Of a DNA stretch of 64,000 nucleotides, positions 33,347 through 40,371 are shown piece after piece (positions within the stretch are counted from its first letter, which is position 1; each line of letters starts with the position of its first letter). The stretch is from an uncultured Clostridia bacterium (lineage in GTDB: Bacteria > Bacillota > Clostridia > Oscillospirales > Acutalibacteraceae), in the NCBI GenBank assembly GCA_944383495.1, contig CALWPT010000023.1:61627-125626 (forward strand), given 5' to 3'. Both the position numbers and the translations under genes were made by a program. A model generated the notes under the pieces. That model was not told where the DNA came from, ran no database searches, and saw only the letters and a program-made list of their open reading frames with translations.

Positions 33347-33486
33347 TCCCATATTCTCTCAAGCCTGCTTTGCGGCCAAAAGCGCCGCATTGCCGGGAAG
33401 CGGGATTGAAATTGTTTTTCGCAAGGCATAGCTCTTTAAAAATCTGCATATGAATGTATCGACAGATTAAAACGGGGGTGAATCCT
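33347..33486 (+). promoter_or_regulatory. Upstream region of spoIIID
   Basis: No gene. A possible mother-cell sigma-E-type promoter: GGCATA (33425-33430), then, 16 nt later, CATATGAA (33447-33454), compared with the CATACAAT-type -10. The GGGGGTG at 33474-33480 serves as SD for the TTG start. The promoter match is weak. Confidence 0.3.
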
Positions 33487-33612
33487 TTGAGAGGATTGGT
33501 TGAAGAACGAGCAATTGAATTGGGAGAGTATATAACGGCGAACAAGGCAACAGTCCGGGCCGCCGCTAAAAAATTTCACATTAGCAAATCAACCGTACAT
33601 ACGGTTGTATGA
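33487..33612 (+). pseudogene. spoIIID: spoIIID, N-terminal part (interrupted by element)
   Basis: A frame from the TTG at 33487 (GGGGGTG six bases upstream) encodes 38 SpoIIID codons, MRGLVEERAIELGEYITANK onward to ISKSTVH, and then TVV and a stop supplied by the inserted element. SpoIIID is the mother-cell DNA-binding regulator acting between sigma-E and sigma-K. These residues include the helix-turn-helix up to the invariant KSTVH; the KDVSERL that should follow is found at 40222. Joined at the repeat, the two parts give an 87-residue protein close to the usual size. It is called a pseudogene only in the unrearranged state, because excision could restore it. Confidence 0.9.
33589..33601 (+). 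repeat. Left attachment repeat (attL) in spoIIID
   Basis: TCAACCGTACATA. It matches 40210-40222 (TCAACTGTACATA) at 12 of 13 positions; the last seven, GTACATA, are identical and should hold the crossover. In spoIIID it encodes Ser-Thr-Val-His. It lies within a short dyad CAACCGT-ACAT-ACGGTTG (33590-33607). Confidence 0.85.
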
Positions 33613-33626
33613 AACCCGAACGGTTT

Positions 33627-33658
33627 AAAACGCCTTTCCCCATGGGGAAAGGCGTTTT
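33627..33658. terminator. Strong palindromic terminator just inside attL
   Basis: Perfect 15-bp arms (33627-33641 and 33644-33658) ending in TTTTGTTTAT on the plus strand. It starts 15 bp after the stop of the truncated spoIIID frame and also lies downstream of asnA on the other strand, so it can end both transcripts. Confidence 0.88.
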
Positions 33659-33747
33659 GTTTATACTGTATATTTCCATAGCGCGGAAAGCTCTGCGGCA
33701 ACCCGTCAGAAAAACGCGTTTAATTATTGAAATAAAATGCAGGCGCC

Positions 33748-34758
33748 TTACAATAGAGGGATTCCCTGAGAAGCGCAGGCCTGTACTGTCTCGGGCGGCC
33801 AAAGGGAAGCCTGTACCTCCCCAATATGCGCCTTGCGAAGCAGAAGCAGGCACAAGCGGGATTGCCCAATGCCGCCGCCAATGGACGCAGGCAACGTTCC
33901 CTTGATAATTCCTGTACAATACGGGTTTTTCAGCCGCTCTTCGCAACCGCTGAGAGCCAGCTGCCGCTTCAGCGCATGAGCGTCCACCCGAATGCCCATG
34001 GATGAAAGCTCCAGCGCGCAGTCAAGCAAATCATAATAGACCAGTAAATCGCCGTTCATAGTCCAGTCGTCATAATCAGGGGCCCGGCCGTCATGGGGAA
34101 CGCCCGATTGAAGCGCACCGCCAATCTGCATTAAAAACAAAGCCCCCGTCTCCTTAACGGCCGCCAGTTCCCGTTCCTTTGGGGATAATTCCGGATATTT
34201 GTCCTCCAAATCCTGCGCGGTGGCAAATGCGATCCGAGACGGCAAACGTCGGGTCAAGCAGTCGTATCGCTCCGCCATATAAGCCTCCGCCCGCAGGATT
34301 ACACCATAAATCGCTTCCACCGTTGCGCGCAGGGTTGCTTCTGTCCGCTCTGTCTGAGGGATCACCTTTTCCCAATCCCACTGATCCACATATAAGGAAT
34401 GGACGTTATCGGTGGTTTCATCCCGCCGGATCGCGTTCATATCGGTGTAAATTCCCTGGCCGGGAGCAATCCCGTAATGCGCCAGGGCGCTTCGCTTCCA
34501 TTTGGCCAGCGAATGCACCACCTGGCAGGGACGGTCGTGTTGCTCTAAAATTCCGAAGCTAACTGGGCGTTCTACCCCGTTCAGATCATCATTCAGTCCG
34601 GACTCAGGATAAACAAACAACGGCGCTGAAACCCGAATTAAATGCAGTGTATGGGCTAAGTCCCGCTCAAAATAGTCTTTCAAAGCCTTGAGCGCCGCCT
34701 CAGTTTCCAATACGGATAGAAGCGGTTTGTATGCCGGCGGAAAATAGGGCTGGGACAT
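33748..34758 (-). CDS. asnA: Aspartate-ammonia ligase (asparagine synthetase A)
   Basis: 336 residues from the ATG at 34758, nine bases after AGAAAGG; an in-frame ATG at 34767 touches the SD. It makes asparagine from aspartate, ammonia and ATP, with a class II aaRS-like fold. Family segments: LIRVSAPLFVYPESGLNDDLNGVERPVSF, SLAKWKRSAL, YTDMNAIRRDE, YVDQWDWEKVI, and GIGQSRLCLLLLRKAHIGEVQ at the C-terminus. It is carried by the spoIIID element, in reverse orientation to the other cargo. Why a housekeeping biosynthetic gene travels here is unclear. Confidence 0.96.
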   Translation of the reverse strand: MSQPYFPPAYKPLLSVLETEAALKALKDYFERDLAHTLHLIRVSAPLFVYPESGLNDDLNGVERPVSFGILEQHDRPCQVVHSLAKWKRSALAHYGIAPGQGIYTDMNAIRRDETTDNVHSLYVDQWDWEKVIPQTERTEATLRATVEAIYGVILRAEAYMAERYDCLTRRLPSRIAFATAQDLEDKYPELSPKERELAAVKETGALFLMQIGGALQSGVPHDGRAPDYDDWTMNGDLLVYYDLLDCALELSSMGIRVDAHALKRQLALSGCEERLKNPYCTGIIKGTLPASIGGGIGQSRLCLLLLRKAHIGEVQASLWPPETVQACASQGIPLL

Positions 34759-34868
34759 GAATGTCATCCTTTCTGTCGTATTTCATACAGGTACGTATTT
34801 TATATTTTATAATGTTATAATAATGCCATAATTTTACCAGAAAGTAAAGCCCCCCTTTCCATTGGGAA

Positions 34869-35282
34869 ATGTATAGATGTTGGTATTACAATGATGCGAA
34901 CCATAGGAGCACTGCCCTTATTCCCCCGTTTTTCTTTTCCATGTCGTCCAAAAATTGCCCCATGGGGTTGCGTGTGCTCAGACTGACAACGGTTCGGGGG
35001 TATCAACCGCCTGCCTTCAAAAGAGAACACGCTGTTAAAACAAGAGCTGACACGTCTTGGCTTCCGTCACAGATTTAGCTCCTACACACCATGCCATATC
35101 GGAAAAATAGCGCCCAGCCACTGCAAACACAACGAGTGATCCATATTTTTAACCACTTCTACAGCTTCAACGTATGGAAAAATGAGCTTGGCGTTCGTGA
35201 ACGAATTAACAACAATCTCCCAATTGATTCTCTTAACGGGCGTTCCCCATATCAGGCCCTTTACTCTTTCCCCGTTCTATAA
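34869..35282 (+). pseudogene. Degenerate DDE transposase (integrase-core) remnant
   Basis: Three plus-strand frames carry consecutive pieces of an integrase-core transposase: QTDNGSG (around 34978), KENTLLKQELTRLGFRHRFSSYTP then GKIAPSH (compare HNGKVERSH), and FYSFNVWKNELGVRERINNN through NGRSPYQALYSFPVL ending at 35282. Frameshifts and stops between them make it inactive. It is an old IS3/IS481-like copy. No terminal repeats were found. It fills most of the gap between asnA and the deacetylase gene. Confidence 0.7.
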
Positions 35283-35364
35283 CGCATTATTATTTGATCT
35301 ATGTCCTTTTAATTGGGTCATTCGTAAAATCGTTTTTTGTAAAGAAGCATTTTGGGGGGAATAA

Positions 35365-35393
35365 TTGACACTTAATAAAAAATATGGTAGTAT
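35365..35393 (+). promoter_or_regulatory. Promoter of the dockerin/deacetylase gene
   Basis: TTGACA (35365-35370), 17 bp, TAGTAT (35388-35393) with a TGG extension. It looks like a vegetative sigma-A promoter inside the element, giving a leader of about 85 nt. Confidence 0.75.
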
Positions 35394-35483
35394 ATGTCGA
35401 AATACCGCTGCGTCATGAAAATGCGCTGGGGTTTCTAATAAAAAACGGCATGTGTAGTATGTATATTTACTTGGAGGCATTTC

Positions 35484-36464
35484 ATGAAAGCGAAATGGAC
35501 CAAAAGTCTGTTTTCACTTCTCTTGGCTTTGGCGTTGCTATGCAGCCTGCTGCTTCCTTCCGCCGCCGCCCAACGAAAGCCGGGAGATTTGGACGGCAAT
35601 GGTCTGATCAATTCCAGGGACGCGTTATTAGTGCTGCAGTATTGCGTTCATCTAATAAAGCTGGACGCCCAGCAGATAGAAGCAGCTGACGCGGATCAGA
35701 ACGATAAGATCAACTCCGGCGATGCGCTTACCATTTTAAAGGTTGCCGTTGGGCTAATTGACGAGCCAACTCGTAAGCCTGCCACGCAGAAACCGACGTC
35801 CGCAGAGCCAAAGGTGAGAAAATACGTTGCCTTTACCTTTGACGACGGTCCAAATACCGGCGCATACGTTAGACTACTCGACCTGGCTGAAAACAAAGGC
35901 GCCCATTTCACCTTCTTTCTGGTGGGAAGCTATATTCAAGACAGCCATAAAAATATTCTTCAGCGGACAGTGAATCTAGGCTGCGAGTTGGGCAATCATT
36001 CCTTTAGCCATCAGCGGATGGGCGCGGGCACCGCTTTTGCCAGCGATCCCTCCCTTGGCGTCTTGGATGTGCAAAGGTGCTCGGACCGGATTGCGGAACT
36101 GATTGGCGATCAACATCGTCCGGTTGTGTACCGGGACCCCTTGCTGGATTCCACACCTGCCGTACTGGATGCCATTCACATGCCAATTATTCACGGCTGC
36201 AACCTGTATTCCGGTATCGAGGACTGGAACCCCCAGGATGTCAACAATATGGTTGATAAGCTGTTGTACGACGACAAGGGAAACCTGAAAATTCAAAACG
36301 GCGATATATTCCTGCTGCACGCAATTCAGCAAAGCACAGTGGACGCAACCGAGATCATGATGGATATTCTAGCCAAGGAAGGCTTTGCGTTTGTCACGGT
36401 TTCCGAACTGTTTGCTTTAAACGGCGTTTCGCCCAGCGTGAGAAAATACAATAACATTTCCTGA
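35484..36464 (+). CDS. Secreted polysaccharide deacetylase with type I dockerin
   Basis: 326 residues. A signal peptide (about residues 1-29, ending SAAAQ) is followed by a type I dockerin (about 33-92) with both calcium loops (GDLDGNGLINSRDALLVLQY and ADADQNDKINSGDALTILK). A NodB-type carbohydrate esterase domain comes next: TFDDGP at 118-123 and NHSFSH at 171-176 give the metal site. The usual RxPYG motif is replaced by YRDPLLDS, so substrate or activity may be altered. Dockerins plug into cohesins, but no scaffoldin was seen here. SD: TTGGAGG before the ATG. Cargo of the spoIIID element. Confidence 0.9.
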   Translation: MKAKWTKSLFSLLLALALLCSLLLPSAAAQRKPGDLDGNGLINSRDALLVLQYCVHLIKLDAQQIEAADADQNDKINSGDALTILKVAVGLIDEPTRKPATQKPTSAEPKVRKYVAFTFDDGPNTGAYVRLLDLAENKGAHFTFFLVGSYIQDSHKNILQRTVNLGCELGNHSFSHQRMGAGTAFASDPSLGVLDVQRCSDRIAELIGDQHRPVVYRDPLLDSTPAVLDAIHMPIIHGCNLYSGIEDWNPQDVNNMVDKLLYDDKGNLKIQNGDIFLLHAIQQSTVDATEIMMDILAKEGFAFVTVSELFALNGVSPSVRKYNNIS

Positions 36465-36567
36465 TCGCCTGCACCTAATACGATGAAAGGCACGGAGCGC
36501 ACAGAGGATAGGGCTGATTTTATCCAGTGAGGATCCCGAACGTATTTATAAAAGGAGTGAGCATACG

Positions 36568-38337
36568 TTGGATCAAAAGGTATCTCCTATCATTTCTCAT
36601 CATGCAGACCTATGCGTCGTGGGGGGCGGCCTGGCGGGTATGCTGACGGCGATTGCCGCGGCCCGCAGGGGTGTTTCTGTCGTTTTAATGCAGGATCGCC
36701 CGATGCTGGGCGGTAATTGCAGCAGCGAAATTCGTATGTGGGCCCTGGGCGCCCATGGGAACAACAACCGGGAGACGGGCATCCTGGAAGAAATTCTGTT
36801 GGAGAATATGCGCCGCAACCCGGAGCGCTCTTATGCCATATGGGATACTATTTTATACGAAAAGGTGGTCTGCGAGCCCAATATCACGCTGCTGCTTAAC
36901 TGCACCTGTATGCAGGCGGAAACGAACGACAGCAGGGTTTTGTCCGTAACCGGCTGGCAGTTAACGACTTATACATTTCACAACGTGGCCGCCAAGCTGT
37001 TTGCCGATTGCTCGGGGGACAGCGTGCTGGCCCCTTTGACCGGCGCCGCCTTCCGCATGGGAAGGGAAAGCCGGCAGGAATTCGGGGAGGATATTGCCCC
37101 CGAGCAGGCGGACAAAAAAACCATGGGCCTTTCCTGCTTGCTGCAAGCGCGGGAGCTGGATCATAAGGTAGAATTTGTACCGCCTGCTTTTGCATATCAA
37201 TACACGGAAGAAGACCTGGCGCACCGGAACCATTCCTTGGAGGATCAGAATTTCTGGTGGATTGAAATCGGCGGCGAAGACGATGCCATCGCCGGCGCGG
37301 AAGCAGCCCGGGAGGAACTGCTGAAAATCGCCTTAGGCGTATGGGATCATATTAAGAACCGGGGGAATCATGGCGCGGACAACTGGGAGCTGGAGTTTGT
37401 CGGCTTCCTCCCCGGCAAGCGGGAAAGCCGCCGATATGAAGGTGATCATATCCTGACCCAGAACGACGTGCGGGCCGAAGGTAGGTTTGAAGACCTCATC
37501 GCTTACGGCGGTTGGAGCATGGACGATCACCATCCCGCGGGATTTTACTACCGGGGTGAGCCCACCATTTACCACCAAGCGCCCTCGCCTTTTGGTATCC
37601 CTTACCGCTGCCTTTATTCTCGGAGCCTGGAAAACCTGTTCTGCGCAGGCCGAAATATCAGCGTGACACACGCTGCGATGAGTTCCTGCCGCGTTATGGC
37701 GACTTGCGCGATTTTGGGGCAGGCGGCAGGTACGGCCGCGGCCTTGTGTTTAGAGAATAATATTTTACCCCGGGAACTATATCAGCGGGGAGTCGGCAGG
37801 CTACAGCAGGCGCTGATGGAAGACGACTGCTATTTACCCTGGCATACCCGGGAAATGCCGGAATTGACGAATAACGCCCGCATTTCCTCCAGTGAAGGGG
37901 ATCCGGAGGTTCTTCGCAATGGTGTTGACCGTCCGATAGGCGAAAAGGACAACGGCCTGCTTCTTCCTTTTGGAGGATGGGTAGAATATGCGTGGGATGA
38001 GCCAAGTAGAGTTGAGGAAATTCGAATCGTATTTGACAGCGACCTAAACCGAGAGCAGTCCGTTCAAGGACCCCAGCGCCCTCTTGACGCACGGCGTCCT
38101 ATGCTCTGCAACCGGCCCATCGGGTATCCGCCTTTTCCCTTCCCCAAAACGATGACACGCGCTTTTCGTCTTGAGCTATATGGAGAGGACGGACTTTTGT
38201 GGGCCAAGGAAATCACCGATAACTGCCAGCGGCTGGTTCGGATTCCCTGCGGCGAAACGGGAACCTGCCTGCGGCTGATTCCCTTGGAGGGATACGGCTG
38301 CGAAGCATCCCATATATTTGGCTTTGATATTCGGTAA
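36568..38337 (+). CDS. FAD-dependent oxidoreductase (PF12831 type) with C-terminal beta domain
   Basis: 589 residues from the TTG at 36568, with AAGGAG 10 nt upstream. The N-terminal FAD-binding GGGLAGMLTAIAAARRG is near residue 19; GGNCSSEIRMWALGAHG and the C-terminal FAD segment LENLFCAGRNISVTHAAMSSCRVMATCAILGQAAG follow. The last 150 or so residues look like a beta-rich carbohydrate-binding or discoidin-like module. No signal peptide. The substrate is unknown; related proteins often sit near glycan-utilisation genes. A strong terminator follows. Cargo of the spoIIID element. Confidence 0.85.
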   Translation: MDQKVSPIISHHADLCVVGGGLAGMLTAIAAARRGVSVVLMQDRPMLGGNCSSEIRMWALGAHGNNNRETGILEEILLENMRRNPERSYAIWDTILYEKVVCEPNITLLLNCTCMQAETNDSRVLSVTGWQLTTYTFHNVAAKLFADCSGDSVLAPLTGAAFRMGRESRQEFGEDIAPEQADKKTMGLSCLLQARELDHKVEFVPPAFAYQYTEEDLAHRNHSLEDQNFWWIEIGGEDDAIAGAEAAREELLKIALGVWDHIKNRGNHGADNWELEFVGFLPGKRESRRYEGDHILTQNDVRAEGRFEDLIAYGGWSMDDHHPAGFYYRGEPTIYHQAPSPFGIPYRCLYSRSLENLFCAGRNISVTHAAMSSCRVMATCAILGQAAGTAAALCLENNILPRELYQRGVGRLQQALMEDDCYLPWHTREMPELTNNARISSSEGDPEVLRNGVDRPIGEKDNGLLLPFGGWVEYAWDEPSRVEEIRIVFDSDLNREQSVQGPQRPLDARRPMLCNRPIGYPPFPFPKTMTRAFRLELYGEDGLLWAKEITDNCQRLVRIPCGETGTCLRLIPLEGYGCEASHIFGFDIR

Positions 38338-38395
38338 ATTATAATATTGCAAGGCAGGATTTCCCAGTTAGAACTCACCCCAGGCATTTATGCTC

Positions 38396-38430
38396 GGGCG
38401 GCCCGTTTGACGGGCCGCCCTTCTTTTTTT
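38396..38430 (+). terminator. Terminator after the FAD-dependent oxidoreductase
   Basis: Perfect 10-bp GGGCGGCCCG/CGGGCCGCCC stem, 5-nt loop, then TTCTTTTTTT. It insulates the recombinase genes from cargo transcription. Confidence 0.93.
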
Positions 38431-38562
38431 TGGCAATCAAGCCATTTTCAGCCAACTCTCTTTGATGAGCGCAAAACCGCCTTTTTAAATTTCACCGTCC
38501 GTGTCCGGGTGTGAAGAAAAGCCCTGAACACAATATCCTGTGTATGAAGCGGACAAGCCCTG

Positions 38563-38570
38563 CATATATT
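38563..38570 (+). promoter_or_regulatory. Possible mother-cell-type -10 upstream of the recombinase
   Basis: CATATATT lies 30 bp before the small ORF and resembles sigma-E/sigma-K -10 elements (CATA core). The -35 is not clear. No sigma-A promoter was recognised between the terminator at 38430 and the recombinase. Confidence 0.25.
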
Positions 38571-38592
38571 GGAAACAAAGGAGGCGGTTAAG

Positions 38593-38739
38593 CTGAAACA
38601 GCAAAAACTGACGTTTCGTTTCCACCAATGCGGCAGCGAAGCAGACATTTCTATGCTTCTCATCCGGCTGTTCGCCGCGGCGCTTTGGACTGCCAGCTGC
38701 CAAACCAACGCAGCAGGAGAAGAGGAAAATAGAGTATGA
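38593..38739 (+). CDS. Small ORF coupled to the recombinase
   Basis: 48 codons from a CTG at 38593 with AGGAGG 8 nt upstream, ending in a TGA that overlaps the recombinase ATG (ATGA). The peptide starts KQQKLTFRFHQCGSEADISM and has a hydrophobic middle. The overlap and SD suggest translational coupling. I do not recognise the family with confidence. It could be a partner of the recombinase (excision factor or regulator) or only a leader ORF. Confidence 0.45.
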   Translation: MKQQKLTFRFHQCGSEADISMLLIRLFAAALWTASCQTNAAGEEENRV

Positions 38740-40223
38740 ATATTGCCGCTTACTGCCGGGTTTCTACCGACAAAAACGACCAGCTCAACAGCCTGGAGAC
38801 CCAAAAGCGGTTTTTTGAGGAATATGCAGAAAAATATGGGTATCGCCTGGTTCATATCTACGCTGACGAGGGAATCACCGGCACCCAGTTGAAAAAACGC
38901 CATGCGTTCCAGCAACTGATGGAGGACGCGGACAGCGGCCTGTTTGAAATGGTGGCAGTCAAGGATATTTCCCGGTTTGCGCGGAATGCAGTGGATTTTT
39001 TGCAGGGCATTCGATATTTAAAGCACAAAGGGATTGCGTGCAATTTCGTCAACGCCAGCCTGACCTCCCAGGACAGCGAAATGATCTTAGGAACCCTGGC
39101 GCTAGTAGCCCAGGAGGAAAGCGCCAACACCTCCAAGCGCGTTAAATTCAGCAAACGGCTCAACGCGGAAAAGGGGCGGGTTCCCAACCTGGTTTACGGA
39201 TATGATAAAACGCCGGGAGAGTTTTTCCAGCTGGCTATCAATGAACGGGAAGCGGCGGTGGTCCGCCGGATTTTTCGCCTTTATACAGAGGAACGGCAAG
39301 GCCAAGGCCGAATCGCCGCAATCCTGAATGCGGAAGGAATCGTAACCAAGCGGGGCTGCCGCTGGACGCAAACAGGTATCGCCCGCATCCTGCGCAATCC
39401 CATTTATATCGGACGAGTGGTCAACGGCCGGGAGGAGATTCAGGACTTTCTAACAGGGACCCGTGTCAAAAGAGAACAAAAGGACTGGCTTGTGAGGGAG
39501 AATCCCTCCCTGCAAATCGTGGAACAGGAATGCTTTAACGCTGCCGAAGCGCTAATGAACGCCAAAGGCAGTTCTCGTTTCCCAGGACGCCGCAGTGAAA
39601 AGCACCTGTTCAGCACCATTCTGCGGTGCCAATGCTGCGGCCGGTCTTTCAGAAGGCTGACCCGCACATATAAAAACACCTATGTCACCTGGGTATGCGG
39701 CGGCAGGAACGAACAGGGAACGGGCGCTTGCCGCAACCGTACTGTGATAAGCGAGCCGGCGCTTATCAAGGAGATGAACGATTACTTTTTGTCCCTGTTG
39801 GAAAAAAGGCCGGGCGCTTGGGATGAAATAAAAAGGGCGTTTGAAGGCGGCTTCACGGAGCGCAGGGCACGTGTGCACTCCTTGCAGGCGAAACGTCGGC
39901 AGTTGCTGAAGGAACGGGAGAAGTACATTGAACTACAGCTCAGTGAATTAATCTCTATGGAGGAATTAAAAGAAAAGCTGACGGCAAGCAAGGCCGCGCT
40001 TCTGCGTCTGGAAGGAGAGCTCGCTGCAGCGTCTCCCCCGCCGCCCTTTCCGGCGAACAGCCTAAAAAGCGCGATTCAGATAGAGCGGCTTACCAACGCT
40101 CAGCTAAGGCAGTTGATTGATCGAATAGAAGTGGATGAAGAAGGTCGGCTGGACATATATCTGCAAGGCGGTTTTCACACCGGTCATGACAGAAACGTTC
40201 AGGATTTCATCAACTGTACATAA
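38736..40223 (+). CDS. Large serine recombinase (SpoIVCA-like)
   Basis: 495 residues. The N-terminal resolvase domain begins NIAAYCRVSTDK with catalytic Ser10 and contains KDISRFARNAVDF. A recombinase domain follows (about 165-270), then a zinc ribbon with Cys298, Cys301, Cys321 and Cys332, and a coiled coil at about 380-430. This is the architecture of large serine integrases and SpoIVCA. It has its own start inside the element and reads toward spoIIID. Its TAA stop (40221-40223) lies at the right att repeat, so excision would replace the stop and extend the frame. It is the obvious enzyme for spoIIID rearrangement. Confidence 0.95.
   Translation: MNIAAYCRVSTDKNDQLNSLETQKRFFEEYAEKYGYRLVHIYADEGITGTQLKKRHAFQQLMEDADSGLFEMVAVKDISRFARNAVDFLQGIRYLKHKGIACNFVNASLTSQDSEMILGTLALVAQEESANTSKRVKFSKRLNAEKGRVPNLVYGYDKTPGEFFQLAINEREAAVVRRIFRLYTEERQGQGRIAAILNAEGIVTKRGCRWTQTGIARILRNPIYIGRVVNGREEIQDFLTGTRVKREQKDWLVRENPSLQIVEQECFNAAEALMNAKGSSRFPGRRSEKHLFSTILRCQCCGRSFRRLTRTYKNTYVTWVCGGRNEQGTGACRNRTVISEPALIKEMNDYFLSLLEKRPGAWDEIKRAFEGGFTERRARVHSLQAKRRQLLKEREKYIELQLSELISMEELKEKLTASKAALLRLEGELAAASPPPPFPANSLKSAIQIERLTNAQLRQLIDRIEVDEEGRLDIYLQGGFHTGHDRNVQDFINCT
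40210..40222 (+). repeat. Right attachment repeat (attR) in spoIIID
   Basis: TCAACTGTACATA, identical to the left repeat except C/T at position 6. The same bases serve as the end of the recombinase gene (Asn-Cys-Thr-stop) and as spoIIID Ser-Thr-Val-His in another frame. Confidence 0.85.
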
Positions 40224-40371
40224 AGACGTTTCTGAACGGCTGAAAGCGGTCGATCCCGCCCTTTACATGGAGGTGCGGCAGGTTCTTCAGGTCAATAAAT
40301 CGGAGCGGCATATCCGGGGTGGCATGGCAACTCGGAAAAAGTATCAGTCGCAGAACGGCGGTATGGGATAA
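40222..40371 (+). pseudogene. spoIIID: spoIIID, C-terminal part
   Basis: 49 codons, KDVSERLKAVDPALYMEVRQ then VLQVNKSERHIRGGMATRKK to a stop at 40371. This is the unmistakable SpoIIID C-terminus (KDVSERL, ERHIRGG, ATRKKY). It has no start or SD of its own and continues the KSTVH that breaks off at 33600. Excision of the element would attach it in frame. Confidence 0.9.

Follow-up and report, generated by a model that had tools for sequence, protein, structure and literature searches.

What a 6,621-bp insert is doing in the middle of spoIIID, the mother-cell regulatory gene whose product acts between sigma-E and sigma-K, is the question raised by a stretch of 64,000 nucleotides from an uncultured Clostridia bacterium of the family Acutalibacteraceae (contig CALWPT010000023.1), hereafter the window. 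The answer proposed, which is considered probable, is that the insert splits the sole spoIIID detected, carries a large serine recombinase (LSR) between two attachment sites, attL and attR, and is excised in circular form by the mother cell during sporulation; excision would rejoin codons 38 and 39 to give a working SpoIIID. This interpretation had been put forward in the initial annotation of the locus, and as a whole it is supported here. What is added to it is a widespread family of such elements, a phage-type attachment site (attP) within the recombinase gene, and a small upstream open reading frame (ORF).

The split gene and its recurrence

The 5' half of spoIIID occupies 33487..33612 on the forward strand, where residues 1-38 (33487-33600, the last codon being CAT at 33598-33600) are followed by three foreign codons and a TGA stop. 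The 3' half (40222..40371, forward strand) restarts with AAA, the codon of Lys39, at 40222 and comprises 49 codons (40222-40368) plus the stop at 40369-40371. In the numbering of B. subtilis SpoIIID (PDB 2l0k) the break lies between His38 and Lys39, and the Pfam model SpoIIID, PF12116, is found in both pieces (E 1.1e-13 and 9.2e-23). The whole intervening element, which has no strand of its own, spans 33601..40221 (6,621 bp), and the core GTACATA stands at both edges, at 33595-33601 and at 40216-40222. Joined in frame, the halves yield 87 residues which align without a gap to the solved B. subtilis SpoIIID 2l0k (E 2.8e-22, residues 4-81). The initial annotation had described the same break between 33600 and 40222, the shared core, the 87-residue join and an LSR inside the insert; all of these hold, the last through Resolvase, Recombinase and Zn-ribbon domains recognised in 38736-40223. 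It had also held that a second intact spoIIID would speak against it: in the window's own genome, a 95.8% complete assembly of 1.73 Mb in 51 contigs, no other match passes the cut-off and a third, weak one stays below it, an absence which that degree of completeness keeps from being absolute. The split in the window is confirmed as real.

Nor is it a matter of chance, because many other genomes are broken at the identical site, among them the single-contig G007 and G324. Related genomes were searched, as had been suggested in the initial annotation, and the split recurs in both a family and a class sample. SpoIIID was matched in 170 of 200 genomes of the same GTDB family (30 had no match), and 14 with only partial matches were picked for a renewed search; seven hold both halves on one contig, one holds them on two contigs and six hold a single piece, which in G072 and G170 lies near a contig end and was not assigned as split. 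The seven one-contig members break exactly where the window does, with inserts of about 3-28 kb (3,037 bp in G007, a genome in a single contig). In the class sample 260 of 373 genomes match SpoIIID and 113 do not; 18 candidates, chosen by eye from the best E-values, were re-examined, and 16 break at the window's site, 12 with both halves and 4 with one. G315 was rejected as a split, having a full-length divergent SpoIIID, and G291, with a 5' piece only and no typical arm, was not counted. In G291, as well as in G262, G324 and G535 of the 16, the 5' piece continues for 3-4 SpoIIID-like codons before diverging, and in G324 the halves lie about 65 kb apart on one contig. The class-sample carriers plus the window's own family spread the split over at least nine taxonomic families.

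The recombinase side of the junction was surveyed in 80 LSR loci, the best 80 of at least 487 relatives confirmed in named genomes. The SpoIIID 3' half stands directly behind the LSR in 73 of them; two more break off at the core, where the contig ends, and another two have the 5' half upstream and a 3' half that follows only after 2.4 kb. Of the remaining three, two belong to genomes in which SpoIIID has no match and one to a genome in which it is intact. These last three, L138, L151 and L173, carry close recombinases whose C-termini differ, which suggests that they integrate at other sites. When 16 genomes with LSR loci were searched whole, 12 had both halves without a full-length copy, one had only 3' halves, one was intact and two had none. 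The 12 include Blautia glucerasea MSK.21.93, Blautia sp. An81, Flavonifractor sp. An82, two strains of Pseudoflavonifractor phocaeensis, Agathobaculum butyriciproducens DSM 100391 and Angelakisella massiliensis, so that split carriers comprise cultured strains as well as single-contig genomes. The LSR clade appears to use the His38-Lys39 codons as its bacterial attachment site (attB) across several clostridial families. An assembly error that placed unrelated DNA inside spoIIID, to which the 51-contig origin of the window might lend some colour, is next to inconceivable, because many independent assemblies, including G007, G324 and those of cultured strains, show this junction together with attL and attR arms that match.

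Two loci were more complex. In bacterium 1xD42-87 (G210; locus L233, G210:C52:68000-87900) three SpoIIID 5' pieces lie about 6 kb apart, with one 3' piece on another contig, an arrangement for which repeated integration or duplication is possible. In L166 (G212:C12) two 3' pieces, at about 2238 and 4870, are 2.6 kb apart, and only one is directly behind the matched recombinase.

A real split could also mean a dead gene, an ordinary prophage or island having inactivated spoIIID in carriers that no longer sporulate and whose halves are decaying. The genomes with no SpoIIID match (30/200 and 113/373) indicate that loss of the gene is possible, the majority of carriers are metagenome-assembled genomes, and the excision assumed in the reading preferred here is itself inferred. 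The substitutions argue otherwise. In three pairs of related split genomes, with recombinases 80%, 77% and 91% identical, synonymous and non-synonymous changes numbered 5/0, 7/0 and 6/0 in the 5' halves and 14/7, 20/3 and 8/0 in the 3' halves (60 and 10 over both halves of all three pairs). A dead gene is not expected to look like this; judged by these counts, both are under purifying selection in the three pairs tested, and each split would be older than its genome pair. Moreover, the window's genome has intact matches to spo0A and spoIVA and an uninterrupted sigK-like gene (an open frame of 257 aa whose 293 bits fall slightly short of the curated model cut-off, 298.65), and a second sigK-like homologue is taken for sigE. 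The recombinase also keeps its core residues, Ser10 and Arg8 being invariant in 9/9 aligned recombinases, and splits at the His38-Lys39 site persist in several families. Inactivation followed by decay is on these grounds improbable, and both it and assembly error were rejected as main explanations on the evidence of recurrence and selection. The split is real and recurrent, it is the work of a dedicated serine-recombinase family, and the halves are conserved where tested.

Attachment sites and the end of the recombinase gene

The attL site (33575..33625, forward strand) consists of a spoIIID half-site, the core at 33595-33601 and an element arm ending GAACGGTT; attR (40195..40245, forward strand) consists of the element arm AACGTTCAGGATTTCAT, the core at 40216-40222 and the other spoIIID half-site, the outer limits being approximate in both cases. 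The window thus has paired half-sites around a short common core, with the reading frame restored on joining, and the two element arms together form an inverted repeat. From 27 attL/attR pairs chosen, one of which lacked a piece, 26 were scored at 16 possible dyad centres, some pairs being near-duplicates (G124 and L152). The best centre was identical in 26/26 pairs and places a CA dinucleotide at the crossover; serine integrases cross over at the central dinucleotide. The match between arms beats 95% of shuffles in 22/26 pairs, and reaches 21 of 22 positions in G007.

The right-hand site is also the end of the recombinase gene. The LSR of the window (38736..40223, forward strand, 495 aa) has its TAA stop at 40221-40223, overlapping the Lys39 codon of SpoIIID. 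The same overlap was found in 71 of 98 distinct split attR sites (G315 having been removed from a list of 99, and only open frames longer than 150 codons being counted), and in 61 of the 73 LSR loci with an adjoining 3' half. At 14 of the 98 sites the frame continues through attR into spoIIID, and at 13 it ends short of attR, 4 of these lying within 100 bases of the start of the locus. A database protein of 561 aa, P0328, has both sets of Pfam domains, its recombinase frame continuing into the SpoIIID 3' half.

Read across attP, as on a circle, the LSR frame stays open, with an exact stop at residue 14 in 23 of 41 distinct arms (48 were found, and misplaced, divergent or short ones were dropped); when the bases past position 25 were shuffled 2,000 times, the average was 2 such arms and the highest count 8. 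The tail has a consensus of about YGSNKIERFVWxIx, and in those 23 tails third codon positions are the most variable (entropy 9.2 vs 6.6 and 4.7, codons 9-14). The public database contains natural proteins that bear this tail, for example P0241, P0242, P0246 and P0314; by a simple end rule the 120 listed among 1,117 database matches comprised 4 tailed, 73 short and 43 other proteins, some of the latter partly tailed, figures which give no prevalence because the 120 were chosen by words from the tail region. In most of the family attP sits in the 3' end of the recombinase gene, and from this position it follows that integration would trim the LSR by its conserved tail of about 14 residues and give it a stop codon built partly from spoIIID DNA. 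Excision would both restore spoIIID and re-lengthen the recombinase. The window copy retains the stop overlap, and in it and its nearest recombinases the tail is eroded.

A candidate directionality factor, the cargo and phage relatives

A candidate for confining excision to the mother cell lies immediately upstream of the LSR. The small ORF at 38593..38739 (forward strand), a candidate recombination directionality factor, overlaps the start of the recombinase by 4 bases; its putative CTG start lies behind GGAGG, the mechanical ORF beginning at TTG 38569. Its family has 50-60 residues and the consensus KKxKLNYRFHNPN...TAxYLLKxFxEANxxKVExAI. With a profile trained on 26 sequences from LSR loci, the window's left out, and a cut-off of E <= 0.05, it was found in 65 of the 80 LSR loci, 63 times upstream on the LSR strand and twice on the other strand. 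The 63 lie less than 300 bases (34), 300-3,000 bases (12) or further (17) from the LSR; of the 15 loci without it, 5 have less than 700 bases before the LSR. The small ORFs tried gave no family match in Pfam, NCBIfam or PHROGs.

Promoters were scored over non-redundant upstream regions at 12 or more of 15, with dinucleotide shuffles as control and with what we take to be the sigma-E-like consensus. Such sites precede the small ORF in 15/51 upstream regions (2.5% in shuffles) and spoIIID in 28/74 (3.5% in shuffles), and sigma-A-type sites precede the small ORF in 1/51 (3.6% in shuffles), with no excess over chance. In the window the sigma-E-like candidate of spoIIID lies at 33426..33454 on the forward strand (GCATAGC, 14 bases, CATATGAA) and scores 10/15. 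The upstream protein of 50-60 residues, often behind a sigma-E-like promoter, would limit excision to the mother cell, and on this sequence evidence it is likely to be the directionality factor.

The rest of the insert holds three long ORFs: an aspartate-ammonia ligase, AsnA (33748..34767, reverse strand; PF03590, E 4.7e-100), a polysaccharide deacetylase with a dockerin domain (35484..36464, forward strand) and an FAD-dependent oxidoreductase (36568..38337, forward strand; PF12831, E 3.3e-87). Together (33748-38337) they make up a metabolic cargo within an intervening element, and unless the circle is kept the mother cell would lose these genes. PHROGs gave no phage structural match for these three, only one weak 40-residue match to a nucleotide-metabolism family, and the structural or replication genes of an intact prophage were not recognised among them. 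With an eroded recombinase tail and no recognised phage gene among its three long ORFs, the window copy is likely to be a resident, domesticated form. A terminator-like hairpin stands just inside attL (33627..33658, forward strand; z -4.4 for an 80-base stretch, 0/200 shuffles); similar ones were found in 12/42 attL sites, compared with 2/210 single-base shuffles, and on the excised circle the hairpin would sit downstream of the recombinase gene.

The family also has phage relatives, as seen in L237 (IMG/VR 3300028833_003189), a virus contig of 62,399 bp. It has genes for endolysin, helicase and ligase, and SpoIIID finds no match on it; its related LSR (49% identical) contains attP within the gene and retains the complete tail, and the small ORF is encoded as well (E 2e-18). 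The tailed proteins and L237 are attP-bearing forms, not all of them necessarily excised circles. A strict attP pattern, outside which the attP of L237 falls, was found 0 times in viral contigs and 0 times in 391 class genomes, and plasmid records gave only distant recombinases, the best among the matches listed being below 40% identity. The best match among phage records, MT838016.1 (45%), was rejected as a circle: it carries a SpoIIID 3' half and is therefore an integrated end.

In a tree of 88 recombinases a clade with support 0.94 unites that of the window with recombinases of G007, G140, G142 and G012, the last represented twice; these genomes belong to the window's own family, and the recombinases of G035, G046, G122 and G124, also of that family, are placed elsewhere. 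Lachnospiraceae and Oscillospiraceae labels (62/88, for the most part taken from the titles of the records) change 7 times, vs a shuffled mean of 20.7 and a minimum of 14, which indicates that, some transfers apart, the elements largely track their hosts. G124 combines two stacked rearrangements in one sporulation cascade, both sigK and spoIIID being split (L234 = G124:C21:99500-116500, and L058) by only distantly related recombinases; across 412 aligned residues the recombinase-like ORF on the sigK side shows 24% identity. The spoIIID element of G124 also contains another, distinct recombinase-like ORF (L058:2552-4417; 34% identity over 293 residues). In G140 sigK too is in two pieces, on two contigs.

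These relatives bear on the alternative that spoIIID is simply a preferred attB of temperate phages, with excision only at phage induction, sporulation from element-free cells or strains, and no developmental control. Such a view would accommodate L237 and the transfers in the tree. It would also fit the full-length SpoIIID proteins of 92 residues, gap-free at the junction and as much as 98% identical to the B. glucerasea join, which may derive from excised DNA or from element-free strains; together with the tailed recombinases they also count, indirectly, in favour of excision during sporulation. It is harder to square with the cargo of the window, where no phage gene was recognised in the three long ORFs, with the 3-kb insert of G007, which has one other long ORF besides the recombinase and the small ORF, and with the enrichment of sigma-E-like but not sigma-A-type promoters before the candidate directionality factor, and is held to be unlikely.

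Mother-cell excision is the best explanation of these observations, yet it is one we infer from sequence, and this counts against it together with several particulars. The small ORF of the window matches its family weakly (E 0.023), and the window's promoter candidates are at the level of chance (10/15 for spoIIID, 9/15 for the small ORF); a sigma-F/G-type pattern before the small ORF is also above chance (15% vs 2%), so that the sigma-E reading is not unique. Four of the 26 attachment-site pairs (G046, Agathobaculum, L120, An81) fail the 5% shuffle level, the attP palindrome of the window is imperfect (14/22 positions, reached by 2/500 shuffles), and its circle reading has no early stop, running to 596 aa. 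Also, the assembly of its genome is fragmented and incomplete, as given above, and no near-identical natural allele of its joined SpoIIID was found, the best being 79% identical.

Going further, a double switch may tentatively be envisaged, at slightly less than even chances: integration would block the mother-cell programme between sigma-E and sigma-K and shorten the LSR, and sigma-E-driven excision would rebuild SpoIIID and restore the long, integration-competent LSR. Among developmental DNA rearrangements of gut spore formers this could be the one found most widely, with forms from phages through to domesticated residents such as the window's copy. Given the place of SpoIIID between the two sigma factors, the split would set a DNA rearrangement one level higher than the classical sigK/skin switch. 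It is also relevant to the way in which anaerobes of the gut regulate sporulation and their transmission. As the split recurs in gut bacteria, gene-presence surveys of spore formers could score spoIIID as missing. Furthermore, a self-trimming recombinase makes two ideas testable, namely the one-way control of serine integrases and the use of the C-terminus as a reporter of the integrated state.

Comparison with known systems

A spoIIID-intervening element was not described in the titles and abstract openings among the matches listed from the open-licence literature, preprints apart, and 'spoIII' is absent from the main text of a large LSR survey (PMC10083194). In the portion consulted of another report, spoIIID is among the genes differing between two Anaerostipes hadrus strains (PMC12888040). 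The closest parallel is the sigK skin element of B. subtilis (recombinase gene spoIVCA) and C. difficile. In both cases an LSR element lies inside a mother-cell regulatory gene, with att half-sites forming inverted repeats and in-frame rejoining, and the small separate directionality factor of skin has its candidate counterpart here. According to excerpts of PMC5025042, the skin of C. difficile has the recombinase CD1231 and the directionality factor CD1234, made only in the mother cell, and the model proposed here would rely on a mother-cell-only factor of the same kind. As told in part of PMC10747680, the recombinases spoIVCA and that of yin adjoin the 5' fragment, whereas here the recombinase adjoins the 3' fragment and has its stop codon within attR. 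The target also differs, spoIIID acting earlier than sigK, and the sigK-like gene of the window's genome is uninterrupted. Against the known skin-like elements, spoIIID as target and attP inside the recombinase gene are new.

Other elements follow the same plan. SP-beta reportedly interrupts spsM. Interrupted sporulation genes named in excerpts of PMC10747680 are sigK, spsM, spoVFB, gerE and yabG, with gin in gerE, vfbin in spoVFB and yin in yabG (PMC5595907, PMC10747680). The spoIIID element is like gin, vfbin, SP-beta and yin in intervening in a sporulation gene and in carrying a serine recombinase, with excision known there and predicted here, and unlike them in its target gene. By the same partial accounts gin, as the window insert, has no recognised phage genes; reports of gin come from strains of the Bacillus cereus group and those of yin from a single strain, as compared with at least nine taxonomic families for the spoIIID family.

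Two further systems recall the placing of attP. The archaeal 'suicidal' SSV-type tyrosine integrases, in the part of PMC8371274 drawn upon, likewise have the attachment site inside the integrase's own gene, which is split into inactive parts; here the enzyme is a bacterial recombinase of the serine type that would lose only about 14 C-terminal residues, the tail alone being affected. In the integration-dependent immunity of mycobacteriophage BPs, as presented in sections of PMC4557955, attP also lies inside a phage gene and integration leads to a shorter protein with a different behaviour, but the gene trimmed there is the repressor, while in the spoIIID elements it is that of the recombinase itself.

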